A stretch of 64,000 nt of DNA, from positions 124,001 through 188,000 of the forward strand of contig CAIVGL010000011.1 of assembly GCA_903905505.1 (NCBI GenBank), in the 5' to 3' direction. Position numbers and translations under genes: made by a program. This document shows, one piece after another, positions 42,080-53,091 of the stretch. Positions within the stretch are counted from its first letter, which is position 1. Each line of letters opens with the position of its first letter. Under the pieces are notes generated by a model. It saw nothing but the letters and a program-made list of their open reading frames with translations. It did not search any database and was not told where the DNA came from. This stretch comes from an uncultured Bacteroidia bacterium (GTDB taxonomy: Bacteria > Bacteroidota > Bacteroidia > Bacteroidales > Prolixibacteraceae).

Positions 42080-43924
42080 ATGGGCAATACGAAAATTGTT
42101 GAACTGGAAGAGGTTGCAATCCGGTTTTCTGGCGATTCCGGTGACGGAATGCAATTAACTGGAGCACTTTTTTCAGATACCTCCGCGTTATTTGGTAACG
42201 ACATCTCTACCTTTCCAGATTATCCATCCGAGATTAGAGCCCCTCAAGGGACAATTGGTGGGATAAGTGGGTTTCAAGTTCAATTTGGGAAAAGCAGGAT
42301 TAAAACTCCGGGTGACTTTGCACATGTGCTGGTGGCCATGAATCCAGCAGCTGTAAAAGCAAACGCTAGCTTTATGAGTCCTGGCGGTACAATTTTCTAT
42401 GATGTGGACAGCTTTACTCAAAAGAACTTTGATAAAGCTAAACTAAAGACTGATGACCCCTTTGAAGAGTGCAATCTTCAAGATTTCATAAAAGTTGCAG
42501 TCCCGATCACCAGCATGACAAGAGAAGCTTTAAAAGATCTGGATATCGATAATAAGAGTATTCTTCGAAGCAAGAATATGTTTGCACTCGGTTTAATTTG
42601 TTGGGTATTTAGTAAGCCTCTCGATTATATAGAGAAATTTATCAATCGCAAATTTGCCAAAAGTCCGATCGTCGTAGAGACGAACTTACGTGTTTTACAT
42701 GCGGGATGGAATTATGGTCTTACCTTAGAGCATCTTACACCTCGTTATGTTGTGCATCCGGCTGAGATTGAAAAAGGGACCTACCGCAATATTAACGGAA
42801 ATTTAGCTACGGCATGGGGCTTGTTGGCCGCATCGCAAAAGGCTGGTCTTGATTTGTTTATTGGTTCATATCCGATAACCCCAGCAACTGAAATTCTTCA
42901 AGCTTTAGCCGATCGCAAAGATCTAGGTGTTAAGAGTTTTCAAGCAGAGGATGAGATTGCTGGTATATGCACCGCCATTGGAGCCTCGTTTGCTGGCAAA
43001 CTTGCTGTTACCACCACATCAGGTCCTGGCTTTGCTTTAAAATCAGAAGCTTTAGGTTTGAGCGTCATGGCTGAGCTACCCTTGGTGGTGGTGAATGTTC
43101 AACGTGGAGGACCTTCAACTGGACTTCCTACCAAAACCGAACAGTCTGATTTACTTCAAACATTATATGGTCGAAATGGCGAGAGTCCACTGGTTGTCAT
43201 TGCAGCTTCTTCACCCTCTGATTGTTTTCACTTTGCTTATATGGCAGCTAAGATCGCTTTGGAGCGCATGGTTCCTGTGGTTCTTCTAACCGATGGATTT
43301 TTAGGAAATGGTTCAGAGCCTTGGCGAATACCTAAGTTGGCTGAACTAGCTTCTATTACTCCGCGAATCGCTACTAATCCAGAGATATTTAAGCCGTATT
43401 CGCGTGATGCTCAAACATTAGCTCGCGATTGGGCTTTCCCTGGTATGGATGGCTACCAACATCGAATTGGTGGTCTTGAAAAAGATGCAGCTGGAAATGT
43501 GAGTCATGATCCAGCTAATCATCAACGAATGACTGATATACGTGAGGCAAAAGTAAACAAGGTTGTGGAGTTGGTTCCTGATCTAGAAGTGATCGGTGAT
43601 GCCAAAGGTGATTTATTGGTCGTTGGATGGGGTGGTACTTATGGGTATATGGATGGAGCTGTAAGAGATTTGCAATCCAAAGGTGTAGCCATTGGATTGG
43701 CTCATTTTAATTATATCAAACCACTACCAGCTAATACAGCAGCCGTATTCTCGCAATTTAAAAAGATTGTCGTTTGTGAACTTAACCTAGGTCAGTTTGC
43801 GGCTTATCTGCGAGATAAAATGCCGAACTTTCACTATCATCAATACAATAAAGTTCAGGGATTACCATTTACAGTCATTGAATTAGTCGAAAATTTTGAA
43901 AAGCTTTTGGAGGATAAAAAATGA
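42080..43924 (+). CDS. korA: 2-oxoglutarate:ferredoxin oxidoreductase, alpha subunit (gamma-alpha fusion)
   Basis: 614 residues. The first 200 are the gamma-type domain (FSGDSGDGMQLTGALFS, then PSEIRAPQGTIGGISGFQVQFG), fused to the alpha domain beginning GNLATAWGLLAASQKAGLDLFIGSYPITPATEILQ and including QAEDEIAGICTAIGASFAGK and TTTSGPGFALKSEALGL. With the adjacent beta subunit it forms the KorAB-type enzyme that oxidises 2-oxoglutarate (or makes it reductively) with ferredoxin. Other 2-oxoacids are possible. It overlaps korB by four bases (ATGA). Confidence 0.9.
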   Translation: MGNTKIVELEEVAIRFSGDSGDGMQLTGALFSDTSALFGNDISTFPDYPSEIRAPQGTIGGISGFQVQFGKSRIKTPGDFAHVLVAMNPAAVKANASFMSPGGTIFYDVDSFTQKNFDKAKLKTDDPFEECNLQDFIKVAVPITSMTREALKDLDIDNKSILRSKNMFALGLICWVFSKPLDYIEKFINRKFAKSPIVVETNLRVLHAGWNYGLTLEHLTPRYVVHPAEIEKGTYRNINGNLATAWGLLAASQKAGLDLFIGSYPITPATEILQALADRKDLGVKSFQAEDEIAGICTAIGASFAGKLAVTTTSGPGFALKSEALGLSVMAELPLVVVNVQRGGPSTGLPTKTEQSDLLQTLYGRNGESPLVVIAASSPSDCFHFAYMAAKIALERMVPVVLLTDGFLGNGSEPWRIPKLAELASITPRIATNPEIFKPYSRDAQTLARDWAFPGMDGYQHRIGGLEKDAAGNVSHDPANHQRMTDIREAKVNKVVELVPDLEVIGDAKGDLLVVGWGGTYGYMDGAVRDLQSKGVAIGLAHFNYIKPLPANTAAVFSQFKKIVVCELNLGQFAAYLRDKMPNFHYHQYNKVQGLPFTVIELVENFEKLLEDKK

Positions 43925-44937
43925 TAGAAGTATTAGAATATACCTTGAAAGATTTTAAGAGCGAGAACGAGGTTCGCTGGTGCCCAGGATGTGGCGACCA
44001 TGCCGTGCTGAACGCTATTCAAAAAGCAATGGCGAATCTGGGTGTTAGGCAAGAAGATTTTGCCGTTATATCCGGCATTGGATGTTCATCTCGCTTTCCA
44101 TACTATATGAGTACCTATGGGTTTCACACCATTCACGGTCGTGCTGCAGCTGTAGCCTCGGGCGTAAAATGTGCGAACCCAAATCTTTCTGTTTGGGAGA
44201 TAACGGGCGATGGCGATGCTTTGGCTATTGGTGGAAACCATTTTATTCATGTCATTCGACGTAATATTGACATAAACATTATCTTGTTTAATAACAAGAT
44301 TTATGGACTTACGAAGGGTCAGTATTCACCGACCTCTGATTGTGGGGCTGTCACTAAAACATCTCCACAAGGGACGATCGAGAGTCCATTTATTCCAGGT
44401 CAGTTAGTGCTTGGTGCAAGAGGGACTTTCTTTGCGCGGTGTGTGGATAACAACATGAAAAATTCGCAAGAAGTTTATGAGCAGGCGGCTAAGCATAAAG
44501 GGACTTCCGTGGTTGAGGTGTTGCAAAATTGCATCATATTCAACGATGGAATTCATGCAGAGATCTCCGATCCTAAAATGCGGGAAGAGCGTCAGATATT
44601 TCTTAAACACGGTGAACCAATGATCTTTGGAACTGAAAAAAATAAGGGACTGATGTTTGAAAAGGCCATGCTTAAAGTGGTTACCATTGGCGAAAATGGA
44701 GTTACTCTTGACGATATTCTTATTCATGATGTGACTGAACCTTATGGGTATGTTCATCAGCAATTAATAGGGATGAAGTTACCTGAATATCCTATTGCTA
44801 TGGGTGTGATACGTGCCGTCGAAGCTCCAGTTTATGATCAGATGATGGAACAGCAAATCGCAGAGGTTCAAAGCAAATCAAAAATTAAATCAATCGACGA
44901 TCTACTTAACAGCGGTAATACCTGGATTGTAGACTAA
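43921..44937 (+). CDS. korB: 2-oxoglutarate:ferredoxin oxidoreductase, beta subunit
   Basis: 338 residues. Cysteines for the 4Fe-4S cluster include those in RWCPGCGDH and SGIGCSSR. The thiamine diphosphate-binding motif is ITGDGDALAIGGNHF followed by NNKIYGLTKGQYSPTS. Size and order match the two-subunit KorAB of Bacteroidota. Overlapping start with korA suggests translational coupling, and a strong terminator ends the operon. Confidence 0.9.
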   Translation: MIEVLEYTLKDFKSENEVRWCPGCGDHAVLNAIQKAMANLGVRQEDFAVISGIGCSSRFPYYMSTYGFHTIHGRAAAVASGVKCANPNLSVWEITGDGDALAIGGNHFIHVIRRNIDINIILFNNKIYGLTKGQYSPTSDCGAVTKTSPQGTIESPFIPGQLVLGARGTFFARCVDNNMKNSQEVYEQAAKHKGTSVVEVLQNCIIFNDGIHAEISDPKMREERQIFLKHGEPMIFGTEKNKGLMFEKAMLKVVTIGENGVTLDDILIHDVTEPYGYVHQQLIGMKLPEYPIAMGVIRAVEAPVYDQMMEQQIAEVQSKSKIKSIDDLLNSGNTWIVD

Positions 44938-44956
44938 CGATTCGGAATAGTTCTAG

Positions 44957-44980
44957 AAAGAGGGACTTCGGTCCCTTTTT
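44957..44980 (+). terminator. Terminator after korB
   Basis: AGGGAC-TTCG-GTCCCT hairpin (stable UUCG-type tetraloop), stem extended by AAAG/TTTT pairs, running into a T tract. It lies about 20 bases past the korB stop. Confidence 0.88.
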
Positions 44981-45032
44981 CTGTTTTGTACTGATTATAG
45001 TTAATTTTAGGTGTTGAATTAGCTTTTGTCGT

Positions 45033-48008
45033 ATGGCGAAAAATGAGAATCATTCGATTGGATCTATCTATAAGCGAAGGCTTTCGGATCGCGATATTTT
45101 TCAAGAGTTAATGCCCCATAAGGTTAAGGAGGTATTACTCTTTGCAACCCTCTACGACTCTTTTTCCATAGAACGAGAAGGGCAGTTTTCAGATAAAATT
45201 TTTGGTGAATATCTGCAGCTAAACCTGTATGCTGCCCCCCGATTTACCAGTGTAAATACATTAGAGCATCTTTCAAATATAATTCATACCCGACATTTTG
45301 ATTTAGTTATTATTATGGCAGGTGCGGATATTTTTCTGCCACTAGAAGTGGCGCGAATAGTCTATAATGCAAAGCCTAGGATTCCAATTTTGCTCTTGCT
45401 AAATAGCGATCGCGATGTTCGTCCATTTCAGTTAGCTATTCAAGGCTCTCCTGCTATTGATCGTATTTTTGTTTGGAATGCTAATTCCAATGTCTTTCTG
45501 GCGATGATTAAATACATTGAAGACAAGAAAAATGTTGCCAATGATACTAGAATGGGAGGTGTTCGGGTGATTTTGCTCGTTGAAGATTCGATAAAATATT
45601 ACTCCCGCTACCTGCCTCTGCTGTTTACCAGTGTCATGATGCAAACACAAGCCTTAGTTTCCGATAAGTCGGAAGACGAATTGCATAAGATCTTTAAATA
45701 TCGGGCTCGACCCAAAGTTTTGTTGGTTAGTAGCTATGAAGAGGCATTAGTGATCATTCATGAGTACAAGGAAAAACTACTGTGTGTTATTTCGGATGTT
45801 CAGTTTCCACGAAATGGCGTGGACGATACCAATGCTGGCATCGAATTGCTAAATTATGTTCGACAAACCTTGCGTTATCCAATCCCTTTACTTCTTCAAT
45901 CACATGATAGTTCCAATGCAATAAAGGCAGCTGATATACAGGCTGGATTTATAACTAAGAATTCATATACACTCGCTAATGATATCAATGAATTTATTAA
46001 CAAGAATTTAGGTTTTGGAGACTTCGTCTTTCGTAATGCAAAAGGTGACCCTATTGGAGGTGCAAAGAATCTGGAGGAGTTTGAATCTTACCTGAAAATT
46101 GTTCCAGAGGAATCATTGGTGTATCATGGGTCTAAAAACGATTTTTCTTCTTGGATGATGGCTCGAGGAGAGATCAAGATTGCGGAACGTTTAATCCCTT
46201 TTAAGATTGAAAATTTTCAAGATCCATCACGGATAAGAGAAGTCTGCTTAGCCATTTTTAGGGATGTTAAAGAGAAGAAAAATAGGGGTCGAGTCATTCG
46301 CTTTGACCCGGAACTGATTTATGGTAATCGTTGGTTACTATTAATGGGGAGCGGCTCACTTGGTGGGAAGGGGAGAGGCCTGGCTTTTATCAGTCATTTG
46401 ATTGCAAATATTGATATGAAAGTTTTGCTTCCTGGTATTAACATCCGCATGCCTGCAACGGTGATTATTGGAACCAGTGAGTTTGATTGCTTCATTCAAC
46501 ATAATAATTTGTATGAATTTGCCTATCATAAATCTGATTTTGAGGAATTAAGAGTTGAGTTCTTGCATGGCGAGCTTAGTCCTTCCTTGTGTGAGAATCT
46601 TTCTCAATATATTAATCAGGTGACTCAACCTTTGGCGGTGCGCTCATCGGGTTTGTTTGAAGATTCATTAGTTCACCCTTGTTCAGGTGTTTATGCTACC
46701 TATCTAATTCCGAATAATCATGCCGAGGCATCGGTTCGACTAGAACAATTAACGACAGCAATAAAACTTGTTTTTGCCTCTGTTTTTAGTGATCAAGCAA
46801 AGGCCTTTTTTGGATCATTGAATTATAAGATCGAAGAAGAGAAGATGGCTATTGTGATTCAGCCGGTGGTAGGTCAAGAACGAGAGGGGCGGTTTTATGC
46901 CGATATAAGTGGAATGGCTCAATCTTTTAATTATTATCCCTATGGTTATTTGAAGCCCGATGATGGCTTGGCAGTGATGTCTATCGGTCTTGGTCAGACG
47001 GTCATGTCAGGAGAAAAGGCATTCCGATTTTGCCCGAAATATCCTGAACTTAAAATGGGAATGGCCGATGATCAGATTAGAGATTCGCAACGTGAATGTT
47101 ATGGTATCGACATGCGACTTGGAAAATCTGAAGTTCGTTTGGGTGATGAATTATCGTTTCTTAGAAAGTATCAACTATCAGAATTAGAGAAGGATCGTGT
47201 TTTTGATAGTTGTGCATCGACCTATCATGCGGATAATGATATTCTAGTTCCTGGTTATGAAAAGGGTAAGACGATGGTTGTTGATTACGCTGCGATCCTT
47301 GAGTATAAAAAATTTCCTTTATGTGTGACTTTAGACCTTTTATTAGATTTGTTTAAGCAAGCGATGGGTTCGCCAGTCGAAATGGAGTTCGCCATTGATC
47401 TTAGTCAAACTGAAAATGGTTGGCCAACATTTTTCTTGTTGCAGCTAAAGCCTTTGATCCGTAATTCGGAGGATAGTGAGGTTGATCTAAGTGCTAAAGA
47501 GACAGATAAATTGCTAATGCGCTCTGCCAAAGGGATGGGGAATGGACTAATAGCTGAATTAGTGGATGTTGTTTATGTATCTTCTTTTGATAAGTTTAAA
47601 ACGAAGGAGATAGCTGCTGAAATTGCAACTCTAAATCGTCTAATGGTTAGTCAGAATAAACAATATGTACTAATTGGACCAGGTCGGTGGGGAACCCGGG
47701 ATAATTTCACAGGTATTCCAGTGAATTGGAGCGAAATTTCGAATGCACGGGTCATTGTAGAGTTAGCTATCCCTGGCTTTGCCCCGGAGCCGTCATTGGG
47801 GTCTCATTTTTTTCACAATGTAACTTCAATGAATATTGGTTACTTTGCAATTCAAGCAAACAATGAAAGTGATTTTTTTCGTTTAGATTTGCTGGAGAAA
47901 CAAACCGTTTGCTGGGAAGGTAAGTATGTCAAACATATCTCTTTTTGCGAACCTTTTGAGGTGTTAATGGATGGTCGGCAGCAGGCTGCAATCATTCGTG
48001 TTCAATAA
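45033..48008 (+). CDS. Receiver-like/receiver/PPDK_N fusion protein
   Basis: 991 residues. The first about 150 fold like a receiver domain but lack the phosphoacceptor Asp (DLVIIMAGADIF). A second receiver (about 178-330) has the acidic pair E184-D185 in LLVEDSIKYYS, candidate phosphoacceptor D255 in VISDVQF, a Ser in LLLQSHDS and Lys in FITKNS. After a linker comes a PEP synthase/PPDK-type ATP-binding region (about 430-960): GSGSLGGKGRGLAFI and QPLAVRSSGLFEDS. The PEP-utilising swivel domain with its catalytic His and the PEP-binding barrel are absent, so it is not a normal PEP synthase. Homologues are annotated that way in Bacteroidota genomes, but function is unknown. Confidence 0.8.
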   Translation: MAKNENHSIGSIYKRRLSDRDIFQELMPHKVKEVLLFATLYDSFSIEREGQFSDKIFGEYLQLNLYAAPRFTSVNTLEHLSNIIHTRHFDLVIIMAGADIFLPLEVARIVYNAKPRIPILLLLNSDRDVRPFQLAIQGSPAIDRIFVWNANSNVFLAMIKYIEDKKNVANDTRMGGVRVILLVEDSIKYYSRYLPLLFTSVMMQTQALVSDKSEDELHKIFKYRARPKVLLVSSYEEALVIIHEYKEKLLCVISDVQFPRNGVDDTNAGIELLNYVRQTLRYPIPLLLQSHDSSNAIKAADIQAGFITKNSYTLANDINEFINKNLGFGDFVFRNAKGDPIGGAKNLEEFESYLKIVPEESLVYHGSKNDFSSWMMARGEIKIAERLIPFKIENFQDPSRIREVCLAIFRDVKEKKNRGRVIRFDPELIYGNRWLLLMGSGSLGGKGRGLAFISHLIANIDMKVLLPGINIRMPATVIIGTSEFDCFIQHNNLYEFAYHKSDFEELRVEFLHGELSPSLCENLSQYINQVTQPLAVRSSGLFEDSLVHPCSGVYATYLIPNNHAEASVRLEQLTTAIKLVFASVFSDQAKAFFGSLNYKIEEEKMAIVIQPVVGQEREGRFYADISGMAQSFNYYPYGYLKPDDGLAVMSIGLGQTVMSGEKAFRFCPKYPELKMGMADDQIRDSQRECYGIDMRLGKSEVRLGDELSFLRKYQLSELEKDRVFDSCASTYHADNDILVPGYEKGKTMVVDYAAILEYKKFPLCVTLDLLLDLFKQAMGSPVEMEFAIDLSQTENGWPTFFLLQLKPLIRNSEDSEVDLSAKETDKLLMRSAKGMGNGLIAELVDVVYVSSFDKFKTKEIAAEIATLNRLMVSQNKQYVLIGPGRWGTRDNFTGIPVNWSEISNARVIVELAIPGFAPEPSLGSHFFHNVTSMNIGYFAIQANNESDFFRLDLLEKQTVCWEGKYVKHISFCEPFEVLMDGRQQAAIIRVQ

Positions 48009-49023: not shown

Positions 49024-49368
49024 TTAGAACTGAGTCATCGCTTTTTTTAGCTCTTCTATTGCCTCAAGACACTCTATTTCGAATCGCCAAATTATGGGGT
49101 AGTAGGTCTGCTGATCTTTTTGATCTAGAATAGATTGTTGAAGTGCTTTAAGGGCTTGGCCAAGATCGGATAAGCCGACTATTTCGACAGAAGACTTTGC
49201 TTTGTGAGCCTCTTTGGCCAGATCAGCATATCTCTTTTCGCCTAGGTATTTATGCATGTTTTCTATCGATTGGGGAACTTGCTCAATAAAAAGTTCAATG
49301 ATCTCACGCATAGAAGTCGAGTCGTTGTCTGTGATGTTTTTCAGATATTCTAAATTCGTTCGTGTCAT
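49024..49368 (-). CDS. HPt (histidine phosphotransfer) domain protein
   Basis: 114 residues forming a single HPt four-helix bundle. The phosphorylatable histidine is H55 in EAHKAKSSVEIVGL, the classic HxxKSS-type motif, with flanking helices REIIELFIEQVPQSI and LGQALKALQQSI. No kinase or receiver is fused to it. It lies convergent to the hydrolase gene, six bases away, and could relay phosphate to or from the receiver domain of the nearby fusion protein; this is a hypothesis. Confidence 0.88.
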   Translation of the reverse strand: MTRTNLEYLKNITDNDSTSMREIIELFIEQVPQSIENMHKYLGEKRYADLAKEAHKAKSSVEIVGLSDLGQALKALQQSILDQKDQQTYYPIIWRFEIECLEAIEELKKAMTQF

Positions 49369-49505
49369 AATAGCTTGAATTTTAATGCTTCTGATTATTC
49401 CAATAAAGATACCGCTAATAATTTAAATCAAAGTAGTCATTTTCTGCTTTTAGTCAGTCTGAAAGTTTTATTTTTACACTTTAACAAGAATTAAATTTCT
49501 ATCCG

Positions 49506-50594
49506 ATGATTAGAACTCCATTTTTTGAGATTCATAACCGTTATAACGCTAAGATCGTTTCGTTTGCTGGGTTTGAAATGCCAATTGAATACACGGGTAT
49601 TAAAGATGAGCATTTAACTGTTCGCAACGCTGTCGGTGTTTTTGATGTATCGCATATGGGTGAGATTTGGGTTAAGGGTCCTAAGGCATTGGAGTTTTTG
49701 CAAACCGTAACTTCAAACGATGTATCGGCTCTTGTGGAAGGTCAGGCACAGTATGCCTGTTTTCCAAATGGCAAGGGAGGCATTGTTGATGATTTGCTGG
49801 TCTATTATTTCGAGCCCAACAACTATCTTTTAGTTGTGAACGCCTCGAATATTCAAAAGGATTATGATTGGTTGGTTTCTCAAAATACGTTCGGCGTAGA
49901 GCTTGAAAATGCATCTTCTAAGTTAAGTCAGCTAGCTGTTCAAGGGCCTAAGGCTTTGCAAGTATTGCAGAAGTTAACCGATGTAGATTTATCTTCTATC
50001 GGCTATTATCGATTTAAAGTTGGACGCTTAGCTGGTATTGATGGAGTTATAATCTCTGCCACTGGGTATACCGGTGCAGGAGGTTTCGAACTTTATTTTG
50101 AAAATGAGTTTGCAGAGCAGATGTGGGAGGCTATTTTTGAAGCTGGTAAATCTGAAGGTATTAAGCCAGTTGGCTTAGGGGCTCGTGATACTTTGCGTTT
50201 AGAAATGGGTTATTGTCTTTATGGAAATGATATCGATGATACAACTTCTCCTATTTCTGCTGGCCTTGGTTGGATAACTAAATTTGTGCCAGATAAGAAT
50301 TTAGTAGATAAAGAGCTCTTGCTAAAGCAAAAAAACGAAGGTGTGGCGCAATCTCTTAAGGGATTTGTGATGATCGACAGAGGTATTCCAAGGCATGGAT
50401 ATGAAATTGTTGATGCTCAAAGTAACGTTATTGGAGTTGTTACATCTGGCACGCAATCACCAGTTTTGAATCAAGGTATTGGAATGGGCTATATCGATGT
50501 TAAACATAGTTCACTAGACACAGAGATCTATATTCTTATTCGGAACAAACTGGTTAAAGCAAAGGTGGTCAAGATGCCATTTCTCAAAGGTTAA
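49506..50594 (+). CDS. gcvT: Aminomethyltransferase (glycine cleavage system T protein)
   Basis: 362 residues with the T-protein fold: [46 protein letters not shown], then [12 protein letters not shown] and [20 protein letters not shown], and a C-terminal barrel with [17 protein letters not shown]. It transfers the methylene group from the H-protein lipoate arm to tetrahydrofolate. No gcvH or gcvP is nearby, which is common in this phylum. It sits upstream of serC, so both are related to one-carbon/serine-glycine metabolism. Confidence 0.95.
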
Positions 50595-50639
50595 TCTTTA
50601 TGTTAATTATTCATCAACTTAGGTTATTTTTCCACTTGA

Positions 50640-50674
50640 TTTGAGTTTAACTTTGTTCAAATGTGTTAAATTTG
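50640..50674 (+). promoter_or_regulatory. Candidate promoter for serC
   Basis: TTTG at 50640-50643 and TAAATTTG at 50667-50674 with a 23-base spacer. A second TAACTTTG box at 50648-50655 overlaps. Both lie in the 175-base gap between gcvT and serC. Confidence 0.45.
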
Positions 50675-50769
50675 TATTTTACATATCACTAGATTATCAT
50701 ATTGCTTCAATTTGCATCGCTTGATTTTCTTGAGCTGCCTCTAATTCATATTTTTTAAAATTTCTTCAA

Positions 50770-51840
50770 ATGAAAAAGCACAATTTTTACGCAGGTCCAT
50801 CAATTCTTCCTGAGTTTACTATTCAGAAAACTGCAGAAGCAATAGTGAATTTCGCAGGAACTTCTCTATCTGTATTAGAGGTCTCTCATCGGAGCAAAGA
50901 GTTTATTGCTGTCATGGATCAGGCCATCTCATTGGTTAAAGAGCTACTAGAAGTGCCTGAAGGATATGAAGTACTCTTTCTTCAAGGAGGTGCGAGTTCA
51001 CAGTTCTATATGGTGCCATTTAATCTTCTTAAGACTAAAGCCGGTTATTACAACACTGGAGTATGGGCTTCAAAAGCATTGAAAGAGGCTAAGTTATTTG
51101 GTGAAGTCGTTGAAGTCGCTTCTTCAAAAGATAAAAATTACAACTACATTCCTAAAAATGTAACCATCCCTTCTGATCTTGATTACTTACATATCACCTC
51201 TAATAATACCATTTTTGGTACTCAGATCTATACCGATATTGATTCTCCCGTTCCTTTAGTTGCGGATATGTCTTCTGATATATTTAGTCGTCCAATCGAT
51301 ATCTCAAAATACGACCTTATTTATGCTGGTGCTCAGAAAAACCTTGCTCCTGCAGGTGTAACACTAGTTATTGTTCGAAAAGAGGCGCTGGGTAAGATGG
51401 ATCGCCCAATCCCAACAATGATCAATTATTTGACTCATATTGAAGGAGAATCAATGTTTAATACACCTCCTGTTCTTCCCGTATTTTCTGCACTTCAAAC
51501 CTTAATATGGCTTAAAGAGAATGGTGGTATTAAAGCTATGGAGGCTAAGAATATCGCGAAAGCAAAGTTGTTGTATGATGAGATCGATCGCAATAAAATG
51601 TTTGTTTGTCCTGTCCCTGATCCAGCTGATCGCTCTTTAATGAATGTGACATTTATTATGGCTCCAGGTTATGAGGAACTTGAGAAAACGTTCTTGACTC
51701 AAGCAAAAGAGCTGAATATTCTTGGCCTTGAAGGACATCGTAGTGTGGGAGGTTTTAGAGCTTCTATCTATAATGCTATGCCGATTGAAAGTGTTGCCGT
51801 ATTGGTTGGGGCAATGAAAGAATTTGAAAAACAAAATTAA
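50770..51840 (+). CDS. serC: Phosphoserine aminotransferase
   Basis: 356 residues starting [13 protein letters not shown]. The class V aminotransferase features include [27 protein letters not shown], and the PLP lysine in [16 protein letters not shown]. The C-terminal substrate region has [20 protein letters not shown]. The enzyme makes 3-phosphoserine in serine biosynthesis. The DUF1015 gene starts three bases later. In many Bacteroidales serA lies between the two genes; here it does not. Confidence 0.95.
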
Positions 51841-51843
51841 TTT

Positions 51844-53091
51844 ATGGCTATTTTAAAACCATTCAAAGGACTTAGACCACCAGCGGATCTGGCATCTAAG
51901 GTTGCTTCACGTCCATACGATGTGCTCAATTCAGAAGAAGCTCGTGTGGAGGCTTCCGGAAATCCATATACTTTGTTGCACATTATCAAGCCAGAGATCG
52001 ATTTTCCATCTGGTACTGATGAGCATATTGAACCTGTCTATCAAAAAGCGGCTGAAAATTTAAAGATTTGGCGTGAAAAGGGCTGGCTTTTAAAAGATGC
52101 CCAAGAGTCCTTGTATATTTATGCTCAAACGATGGACGGACGCACGCAATATGGTATCGTAGGGTGTGCCTCTGTTGATGACTATTTGAATGGCGTTATT
52201 CGTAAACATGAGTTAACACGCAATGATAAAGAAGAGGATCGGATGAAACATGTGCGCATTACTAATGCAAACATGGAGCCTGTATTTTTTGCTTATCCTG
52301 CGGTAAAAGAATTGGACGACATTGTAGGTGCTATAGTAGCAAATCAAAAACCAGTCTATGACTATGTGGCCGAGGATGGTTTTGGTCATCATTTTTGGTT
52401 GGTAGACAATAAAATAACAATTGATAAGGTTGTTAACCTATTTGCAGCAATCCCTGCTACCTATGTTGCTGATGGTCATCATCGTACTGCTGCAGCGGCA
52501 CTCGTTGGAAAAGAAAAGAGAGCTCAGAATCCGAATCATACTGGCGATGAGGAGTATAATTTCTTTCTGGCTGTTCATTTTCCTGATAATCAATTGAAAA
52601 TCATCGATTACAATCGGACAGTTAAGGATCTAAATGGTCTAACTATTGCTCAGTTGATCGAAAAAATTGGCGTTGATTTTGATATTCGAAAAGTTGGAAC
52701 TACAATATATAAGCCTGAAGCACTTCATACCTTTAGTATGTATGTCGAAGGGGAGTGGTATGAATTAGTTACCAAGGCTGGTCGTTACAATGATAATGAT
52801 CCTATCGGCGTGCTAGATGTGACGATTCTTTCAAACCTTATTCTTGATCAAATTCTTGGAATTAAAGATTTGAGAACCGATAAACGTGTTGATTTTGTAG
52901 GCGGTATTCGCGGCCTGGGAGAGTTGAAAAGTAGAGTTGATTCAGGTGATATGAAGGTGGCTTTCGCTCTTTATCCCGTGTCGATGAAACAACTTATCGA
53001 TATTGCTGATTCTGGAAATATTATGCCACCTAAAACAACTTGGTTTGAGCCTAAGCTTCGATCGGGTTTGGTGGTTCATGAATTGGATTAA
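51844..53091 (+). CDS. DUF1015 family protein
   Basis: 415 residues. The N-terminal AILKPFKGLRPPADLASKVASRPYDVLNSEEAR and the central YVADGHHRTAAAALVGKEKRAQNP are DUF1015 hallmarks. RKHELTRNDKEEDRMKH is another conserved block. The family has no assigned activity that can be relied on here. Its constant pairing with serC (three bases between here) suggests a role in serine/phosphoserine metabolism. A strong bidirectional terminator follows. Confidence 0.88.
   Translation: MAILKPFKGLRPPADLASKVASRPYDVLNSEEARVEASGNPYTLLHIIKPEIDFPSGTDEHIEPVYQKAAENLKIWREKGWLLKDAQESLYIYAQTMDGRTQYGIVGCASVDDYLNGVIRKHELTRNDKEEDRMKHVRITNANMEPVFFAYPAVKELDDIVGAIVANQKPVYDYVAEDGFGHHFWLVDNKITIDKVVNLFAAIPATYVADGHHRTAAAALVGKEKRAQNPNHTGDEEYNFFLAVHFPDNQLKIIDYNRTVKDLNGLTIAQLIEKIGVDFDIRKVGTTIYKPEALHTFSMYVEGEWYELVTKAGRYNDNDPIGVLDVTILSNLILDQILGIKDLRTDKRVDFVGGIRGLGELKSRVDSGDMKVAFALYPVSMKQLIDIADSGNIMPPKTTWFEPKLRSGLVVHELD

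Follow-up and report, generated by a model that had tools for sequence, protein, structure and literature searches.

The korAB locus encodes a protein with two receivers and an ATP-grasp domain

The window, meaning the whole stretch of DNA analysed here, comprises 64,000 nucleotides of a contig from an uncultured bacterium of the Prolixibacteraceae (Bacteroidales). A single real ORF at 45033..48008 on the + strand, with its ATG at 45033 and its stop at 48008, encodes a protein of 991 amino acids. Full-length relatives were found at no fewer than 80 Bacteroidales loci, with 52-89% identity, and a tree placed the protein in a clade denoted here alpha. Upstream on the same strand are the genes of KorA, the alpha subunit of a 2-oxoacid:acceptor oxidoreductase (42080..43924; TIGR03710, 641 bits), and KorB, the beta subunit of a 2-oxoacid:ferredoxin oxidoreductase (43921..44937). 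Of the 69 clade loci with sufficient sequence, 28 have KorB immediately before the gene, 16 have DUF1015 there and 25 have neither. Between korB and the gene we noticed a terminator-like hairpin of 13 pairs with a TTCG loop and a T tail (44954..44983, + strand), which makes a simple operon of KorAB and the 991-residue protein doubtful.

Downstream, on the - strand, lies a gene encoding an HPt protein (49024..49368; Pfam Hpt, 33.9 bits). The preliminary description of this DNA had linked the two genes. The link proved weak. HPt is one gene of a conserved HPt-GcvT-SerC-DUF1015 block (49024-53091), which Prolixibacteraceae relatives have in two placements with respect to the gene studied here, and it is found near that gene in 13 of the 36 clade loci with more than 8 kb on both sides. 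Synteny thus follows the block and not the gene, arguing against HPt as a dedicated partner; HPt is a possible candidate phosphodonor for the second receiver.

From the N-terminus the protein consists of a degenerate receiver, an intact receiver, a helical linker, a PPDK_N ATP-grasp domain and a swivel-like C-terminal domain. The full-length model has a mean pLDDT of 81.6, and a PHROGs search with the protein gave no match. The linker (residues ~331-420; 46023..46292) matches the Pfam family DUF5752 weakly, below threshold, at residues 344-416 (E 3e-4), and the same match is present in 38 of 50 relatives.

Receiver 1 (residues ~30-165; 45120..45527) was recognised by alignment and by its fold, the best match of the model being the receiver of PorX (Z 14.5). 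It carries M95 in the phosphoacceptor place and has no Lys; among 50 relatives this place is taken by M, T or W. Receiver 2 (residues ~177-330; 45561..46022) matches ComE, LuxO and CheY in fold (Z 13-16; ComE 15.8) and has the acidic pair, phosphoacceptor Asp, Ser/Thr and Lys of a response regulator. The Pfam Response_reg profile gave no match in the query itself and matched 46 of the 50 aligned relatives. In this diverse set E184, K309 and D255, the predicted phosphoacceptor (codon 45795..45797), are each conserved in 50/50, and D185 and S290 in 49/50, the single exception at S290 being T. The alignment therefore bears out the earlier proposal of a degenerate first receiver followed by one with E184-D185, D255, Ser and Lys, and settles the conservation of D255 across the family, which had been left to be checked. 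The receiver folds in the model, the conserved key residues and the PPDK_N profile match described below likewise agree with the proposed fusion of two receivers to a PPDK-type ATP-grasp domain.

The protein carries a dikinase-type ATP site and is probably not a PEP synthase

The ATP-grasp domain, defined by Pfam, alignment and tree, spans residues 442-822 (46356..47498), where PPDK_N matches above its curated cut-off (E 1.3e-29). K446, R537, E783, E785 and Q804 are invariant among the 50 relatives and correspond to ATP residues of PPDK and RPH, so that the Lys, Arg, Glu and Gln ATP contacts of the dikinase superfamily are all present. In RPH, the substitution K22A abolishes activity (PMC4844700). 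Residue 806 is K in the window's clade, as in alpha generally, and R in other clades.

No Pfam match to the PEP/pyruvate-binding barrel was found in the query or in 50 relatives, and the protein stops after its swivel-like domain; the part that is truly absent is this barrel. The TIGR01418 equivalog for PEP synthase scores 23.4 bits against a cut-off of 739.75, which speaks against this identity, as the preliminary description had anticipated. The same genome also encodes a complete PPDK (916 aa) as a protein of its own, indicating that the 991-residue protein is unnecessary for PEP synthesis. In this genome (97% complete) PF00391 occurs solely in the complete PPDK, and no stand-alone PF00391 protein was found. 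The warning that automatic labels mislead was also justified: a Parabacteroides homologue is annotated 'PEP/pyruvate-binding domain-containing protein'.

The C-terminal domain resembles a diverged swivel domain

According to the preliminary description, the protein lacks a phosphohistidine domain, and its C-terminal segment does not belong to standard PEP synthases. Models, fold search and conserved motifs led us to a different view of residues ~824-991 (47502..48005). The domain carries two invariant motifs, GRWG and S-x-G-[ST]-H-F-F; R885, W886 and H925 are invariant among 50 diverse members. The isolated C-terminal ~170 residues model with high confidence (pLDDT 91.5, pTM 0.89), and the top 14 VIA matches of this model comprise nothing but phosphohistidine-type domains and the extra domain of pyruvate kinase that is related to them. 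The matches include PPDK 5jvj (Z 7.2 over 117 aa, 3.4 A, chain residues 381-509), where a Z of about 7 is within the range reachable by unrelated models, the phosphoryl carrier domain of PPDK solved by NMR (2fm4, Z 6.8), RPH 5fbu (Z 6.4) and EIN-Ntr 5t1o (Z 5.4); the first unrelated fold appears at Z 5.3. With the whole model the best match was RPH (5hv1/5hv3, Z about 26). Residues 423-991 also align to 4-466 of PEP synthase 2ols (Z 25.8, 363 residues, 4.2 A) and to 2-510 of PPDK 1dik (Z 19.1). The alignments with RPH, PEP synthase and PPDK thus extend beyond the ATP-grasp domain to where the swivel domain ends; against RPH 5hv6, which is the ATP-grasp domain alone, the whole model aligns over 277 residues.

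By eye, the order of strands and helices in the modelled domain is that of the PPDK swivel, and H925 (codon 47805..47807) begins, after the preceding strand, the helix equivalent to that of PPDK His455. This equivalence rests on topology, as the fold search yields ranges and no residue pairs. Sequence comparisons were silent. PF00391 (PEP-utilizers), whose presence in the C-terminus the preliminary description had named as counter-evidence, matched 0 of 54 C-terminal domains; hhalign of the same 54 against 12 PPDK/EI swivel domains gave a probability of 0.1; a forced hhalign across ATP-grasp and swivel gave no sequence support for the swivel domain; a profile search of the PDB with the domain gave no match; and Foldseek alone placed no swivel domain among its top 50 for the C-terminal model. 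In known swivel domains the catalytic His is preceded by the motif T/SxxGGxxxH (PMC12167813), which is not found here, the corresponding sequence being S-[LQF]-G-[ST]-H-F-F. Judging from the models, a swivel fold is likely present, and the protein is probably competent in catalysis, with H925 as the candidate phosphocarrier. Neither the absence of a phosphohistidine domain nor a C-terminal segment alien to the family is upheld: its best fold matches are the swivel domains of PPDK, RPH and EI-Ntr, and its His is invariant.

Three architectures share the ATP-grasp and C-terminal domains

Relatives of the protein fall into three architectures that have in common the ATP-grasp domain and the same C-terminal domain. 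Architecture A (~1000 aa) carries the two receivers; B (~580 aa) consists of the ATP-grasp and C-terminal domains alone; C (~1060 aa) has an N-terminal sensor region and mostly also a C-terminal nucleotidyltransferase domain (NTP_transf_2). The C-terminal domains of A and C are related (E 2.6e-27), and H925 is invariant across A, B and C. In two C members (L119, 6690-9869; L123, 7112-10144) the nucleotidyltransferase looks degenerate, with no GS...DxD motif by eye.

In Bacteroidales, the tree divides architecture A into alpha and beta, which often occur in tandem. Alpha proteins have K806 and 42-50% identity to the query, and many reach ~1155 aa through an N-terminal sensor akin to the one in architecture C; the protein studied here belongs to alpha and has no such extension. 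Beta proteins have R806 and 35-37% identity to the query. Of 148 Bacteroidales genomes sampled, 131 carry a homologue. In one genome a type A copy is broken by an in-frame TGA (L114, 6939-9950).

Family members adjoin glutamate dehydrogenase genes

The strongest evidence on the role of the protein, absent from the preliminary description, is the recurrence of glutamate dehydrogenase (GDH) or KorAB genes beside members of its family. In a phylum-wide sample, with GDH genes identified by NCBIfam, a GDH gene is found within 1 kb of 40 of the 50 type A genes, in 31 cases upstream and on the same strand. The receiver-less type B shows the same proximity in 9 of 11 cases. Type C genes adjoin GDH in 7 of 11 cases; measured from the matched part, which leaves out the N-terminal region, the distances come to 1.1-1.3 kb, with one of 0.65 kb. 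The chance expectation of such adjacency, estimated roughly from 1-4 GDH genes in a genome of 2.4-5 Mb, is about 1% or less; sampled Bacteroidota genomes often have two or three GDH genes. For Bacteroidales, where the genomes were the top of the match list and hence non-random, 16 of 33 alpha genes have GDH as a neighbour, in 15 cases divergent and at <2 kb, as do 6 of 33 beta genes.

The arrangements vary. Gene orders include GDH-GDH-A-B-C (L118), GDH-alpha-beta-GDH (L157) and, in one genome, KorA-KorB-alpha-beta-GDH (L163). In Parabacteroides gdhA is divergent from the family gene, and a second GDH gene lies 3.5 kb past it. Three loci (L111, L112 and L113) read GDH-A-PAS histidine kinase-NarL-type response regulator-GDH-A-third GDH; their histidine kinase is a candidate cognate kinase for the receivers. 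In the window's own clade no GDH gene was found near the gene at any of 80 loci, within the available flanks, and the GDH of the same genome sits on another contig. GDH and KorAB have in common that they act on 2-oxo acids; the substrate of KorAB we take, from the usual assignment, to be 2-oxoglutarate. On these grounds it seems rather likely that the protein works at the GDH/2-oxoglutarate node.

A related metallophosphoesterase is encoded near family genes in L160, L115, L117, L122 and L130, and could possibly provide a reverse activity. At L160 (6486-15776) an alpha gene, a sensor-nucleotidyltransferase gene (260 aa), the metallophosphoesterase gene, a beta gene and a gene for a sensor-Crp regulator lie in a run, so that the modules of architecture C appear there as separate genes. 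The recurrence of the metallophosphoesterase and of the sensor-nucleotidyltransferase is what a system of reversible modification would lead one to expect.

A proposed receiver-gated phosphotransferase and its alternatives

Conservation of receiver 2, the ATP site and H925, together with the lack of an acceptor domain, suggests a gated transfer of phosphate from ATP to H925 and on to an outside acceptor. Our leading, still tentative, reading is that the protein is a receiver-gated phosphotransferase of dikinase type that serves an outside acceptor at the glutamate/2-oxoglutarate node. The PEP/pyruvate barrel would have been lost, or never present, in a dikinase-superfamily protein under two-component control. 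A histidine kinase or an HPt protein would place phosphate on D255 of receiver 2, and D255~P would then set free the ATP-grasp and swivel domains, this being the presumed direction of control. ATP would be turned over to give phospho-H925, with release of AMP and Pi as in PEP synthase and RPH, and H925~P would pass its phosphate to an acceptor outside the polypeptide. From the gene neighbourhood, the acceptor or controlled step may be GDH in most lineages and KorAB in the window's clade; that the acceptor is the enzyme protein and not a metabolite is conceivable, though we lean against it. The suggestion in the preliminary description that the ATP-binding part acts on a different acceptor under receiver control is supported as probable, since the ATP-grasp domain comes without the barrel and with receiver 2 intact.

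The same domains could instead form a non-catalytic nucleotide sensor, in which the ATP-grasp domain binds ATP, ADP or AMP and acts with receiver phosphorylation to control GDH or KorAB through binding, while the C-terminal domain serves as a docking module. Receivers and sensor domains do recur in the family, the swivel motif is not recognisable in the C-terminal domain, and K806 of the window's clade replaces the residue equivalent to R337 of PPDK, which we take to be important for phosphoryl transfer. K for R is a conservative change, however, and other clades keep R; K446, R537, E783, E785 and Q804 are each kept in 50/50, and H925 does not vary, not even in the minimal B form. We regard this sensor as rather unlikely.

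Somewhat less likely still is a metabolic enzyme, that is, a small-molecule dikinase that obtains its third domain from a partner protein and phosphorylates a metabolite that GDH or KorAB produces or consumes. Split small-molecule dikinases exist, such as HpeI/HpeH or PpsAB (PMC12167813), and the family genes do adjoin genes of metabolic enzymes. Yet no third gene common to the neighbourhoods of all members was found, the varied input modules (receivers, a sensor or none) look regulatory, and the metallophosphoesterase and nucleotidyltransferase nearby suit control better than catabolism.

We give little credence to an unrelated alpha/beta C-terminal domain with self-phosphorylation of D255 or another receiver residue: sequence searches indeed show no relation to PF00391, but fold matches favour swivel domains and the B form, which has no receivers, retains both the ATP-grasp and the C-terminal domain. 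A degenerate remnant of PEP synthase with no phosphotransfer function, as the missing barrel and broken copies such as L114 might suggest, is scarcely credible given how strictly active-site and receiver residues are kept across wide divergence (33-40% identity) and a homologue in 131 of 148 Bacteroidales genomes.

Relation to known systems and significance

Among known proteins, RPH likewise joins an ATP-grasp domain to a C-terminal swivel-like domain; the 991-residue protein differs in having N-terminal receivers and no RIF-binding domain, and in a swivel motif that is unrecognisable in sequence. With PEP synthase and PPDK it shares the ATP-grasp fold, the ATP residues and a swivel-like domain after the ATP-grasp, but not the PEP/pyruvate barrel. 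In the two-component dikinases HpeHI and PpsAB the acceptor domain and the ATP-grasp are in different proteins (PMC12167813); there the ATP-grasp stands alone, whereas here it is joined to a swivel-like domain, with an acceptor part that is either separate or missing. EI-Ntr combines signal or sensor input with a swivel-type His domain, which the C-terminal domain studied here resembles in fold, and has a supposed role in carbon/nitrogen balance; but PEP is its phosphate source, and an ATP-grasp domain is lacking. The proposed control of GDH would resemble in its role that of glutamine synthetase by GlnE/GlnD, with a system made of dikinase parts.

The receiver-PPDK fusion itself is already known, the same architecture being given in two censuses: it is recorded as a 'Bacteroides-like combination' (PMC5847659), and receivers without the Asp are enriched with PPDK (PMC4395418). 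The parts of these two sources considered here give no swivel domain, GDH or KorAB link, or B and C architectures. In the open-licence literature we found no report of the family's link to GDH and no description of the KorAB link, the swivel-like C-terminus or the B and C forms, which is weak evidence of novelty.

Taken to its widest, the reading would have GDH (and, in the window's clade, 2-oxoglutarate:ferredoxin oxidoreductase) controlled throughout the phylum by receiver- or sensor-gated swivelling phosphotransferases, with a nucleotidyltransferase and a metallophosphoesterase, through reversible modification of the enzyme or its substrate; this general form is speculative and, on present evidence, improbable. 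Bacteroidota, abundant gut bacteria included, are rich in GDH genes. The switching of these enzymes is poorly known, and a family with signal input beside GDH in most lineages sampled makes it testable at once. It would also put right a common mislabelling as PEP synthase. If the proposed reading is true, two-component signalling can make use of the swivelling-His machinery known from metabolism and antibiotic inactivation, and the position of the family beside GDH suggests an undescribed, phylum-wide control of bacterial carbon/nitrogen balance.
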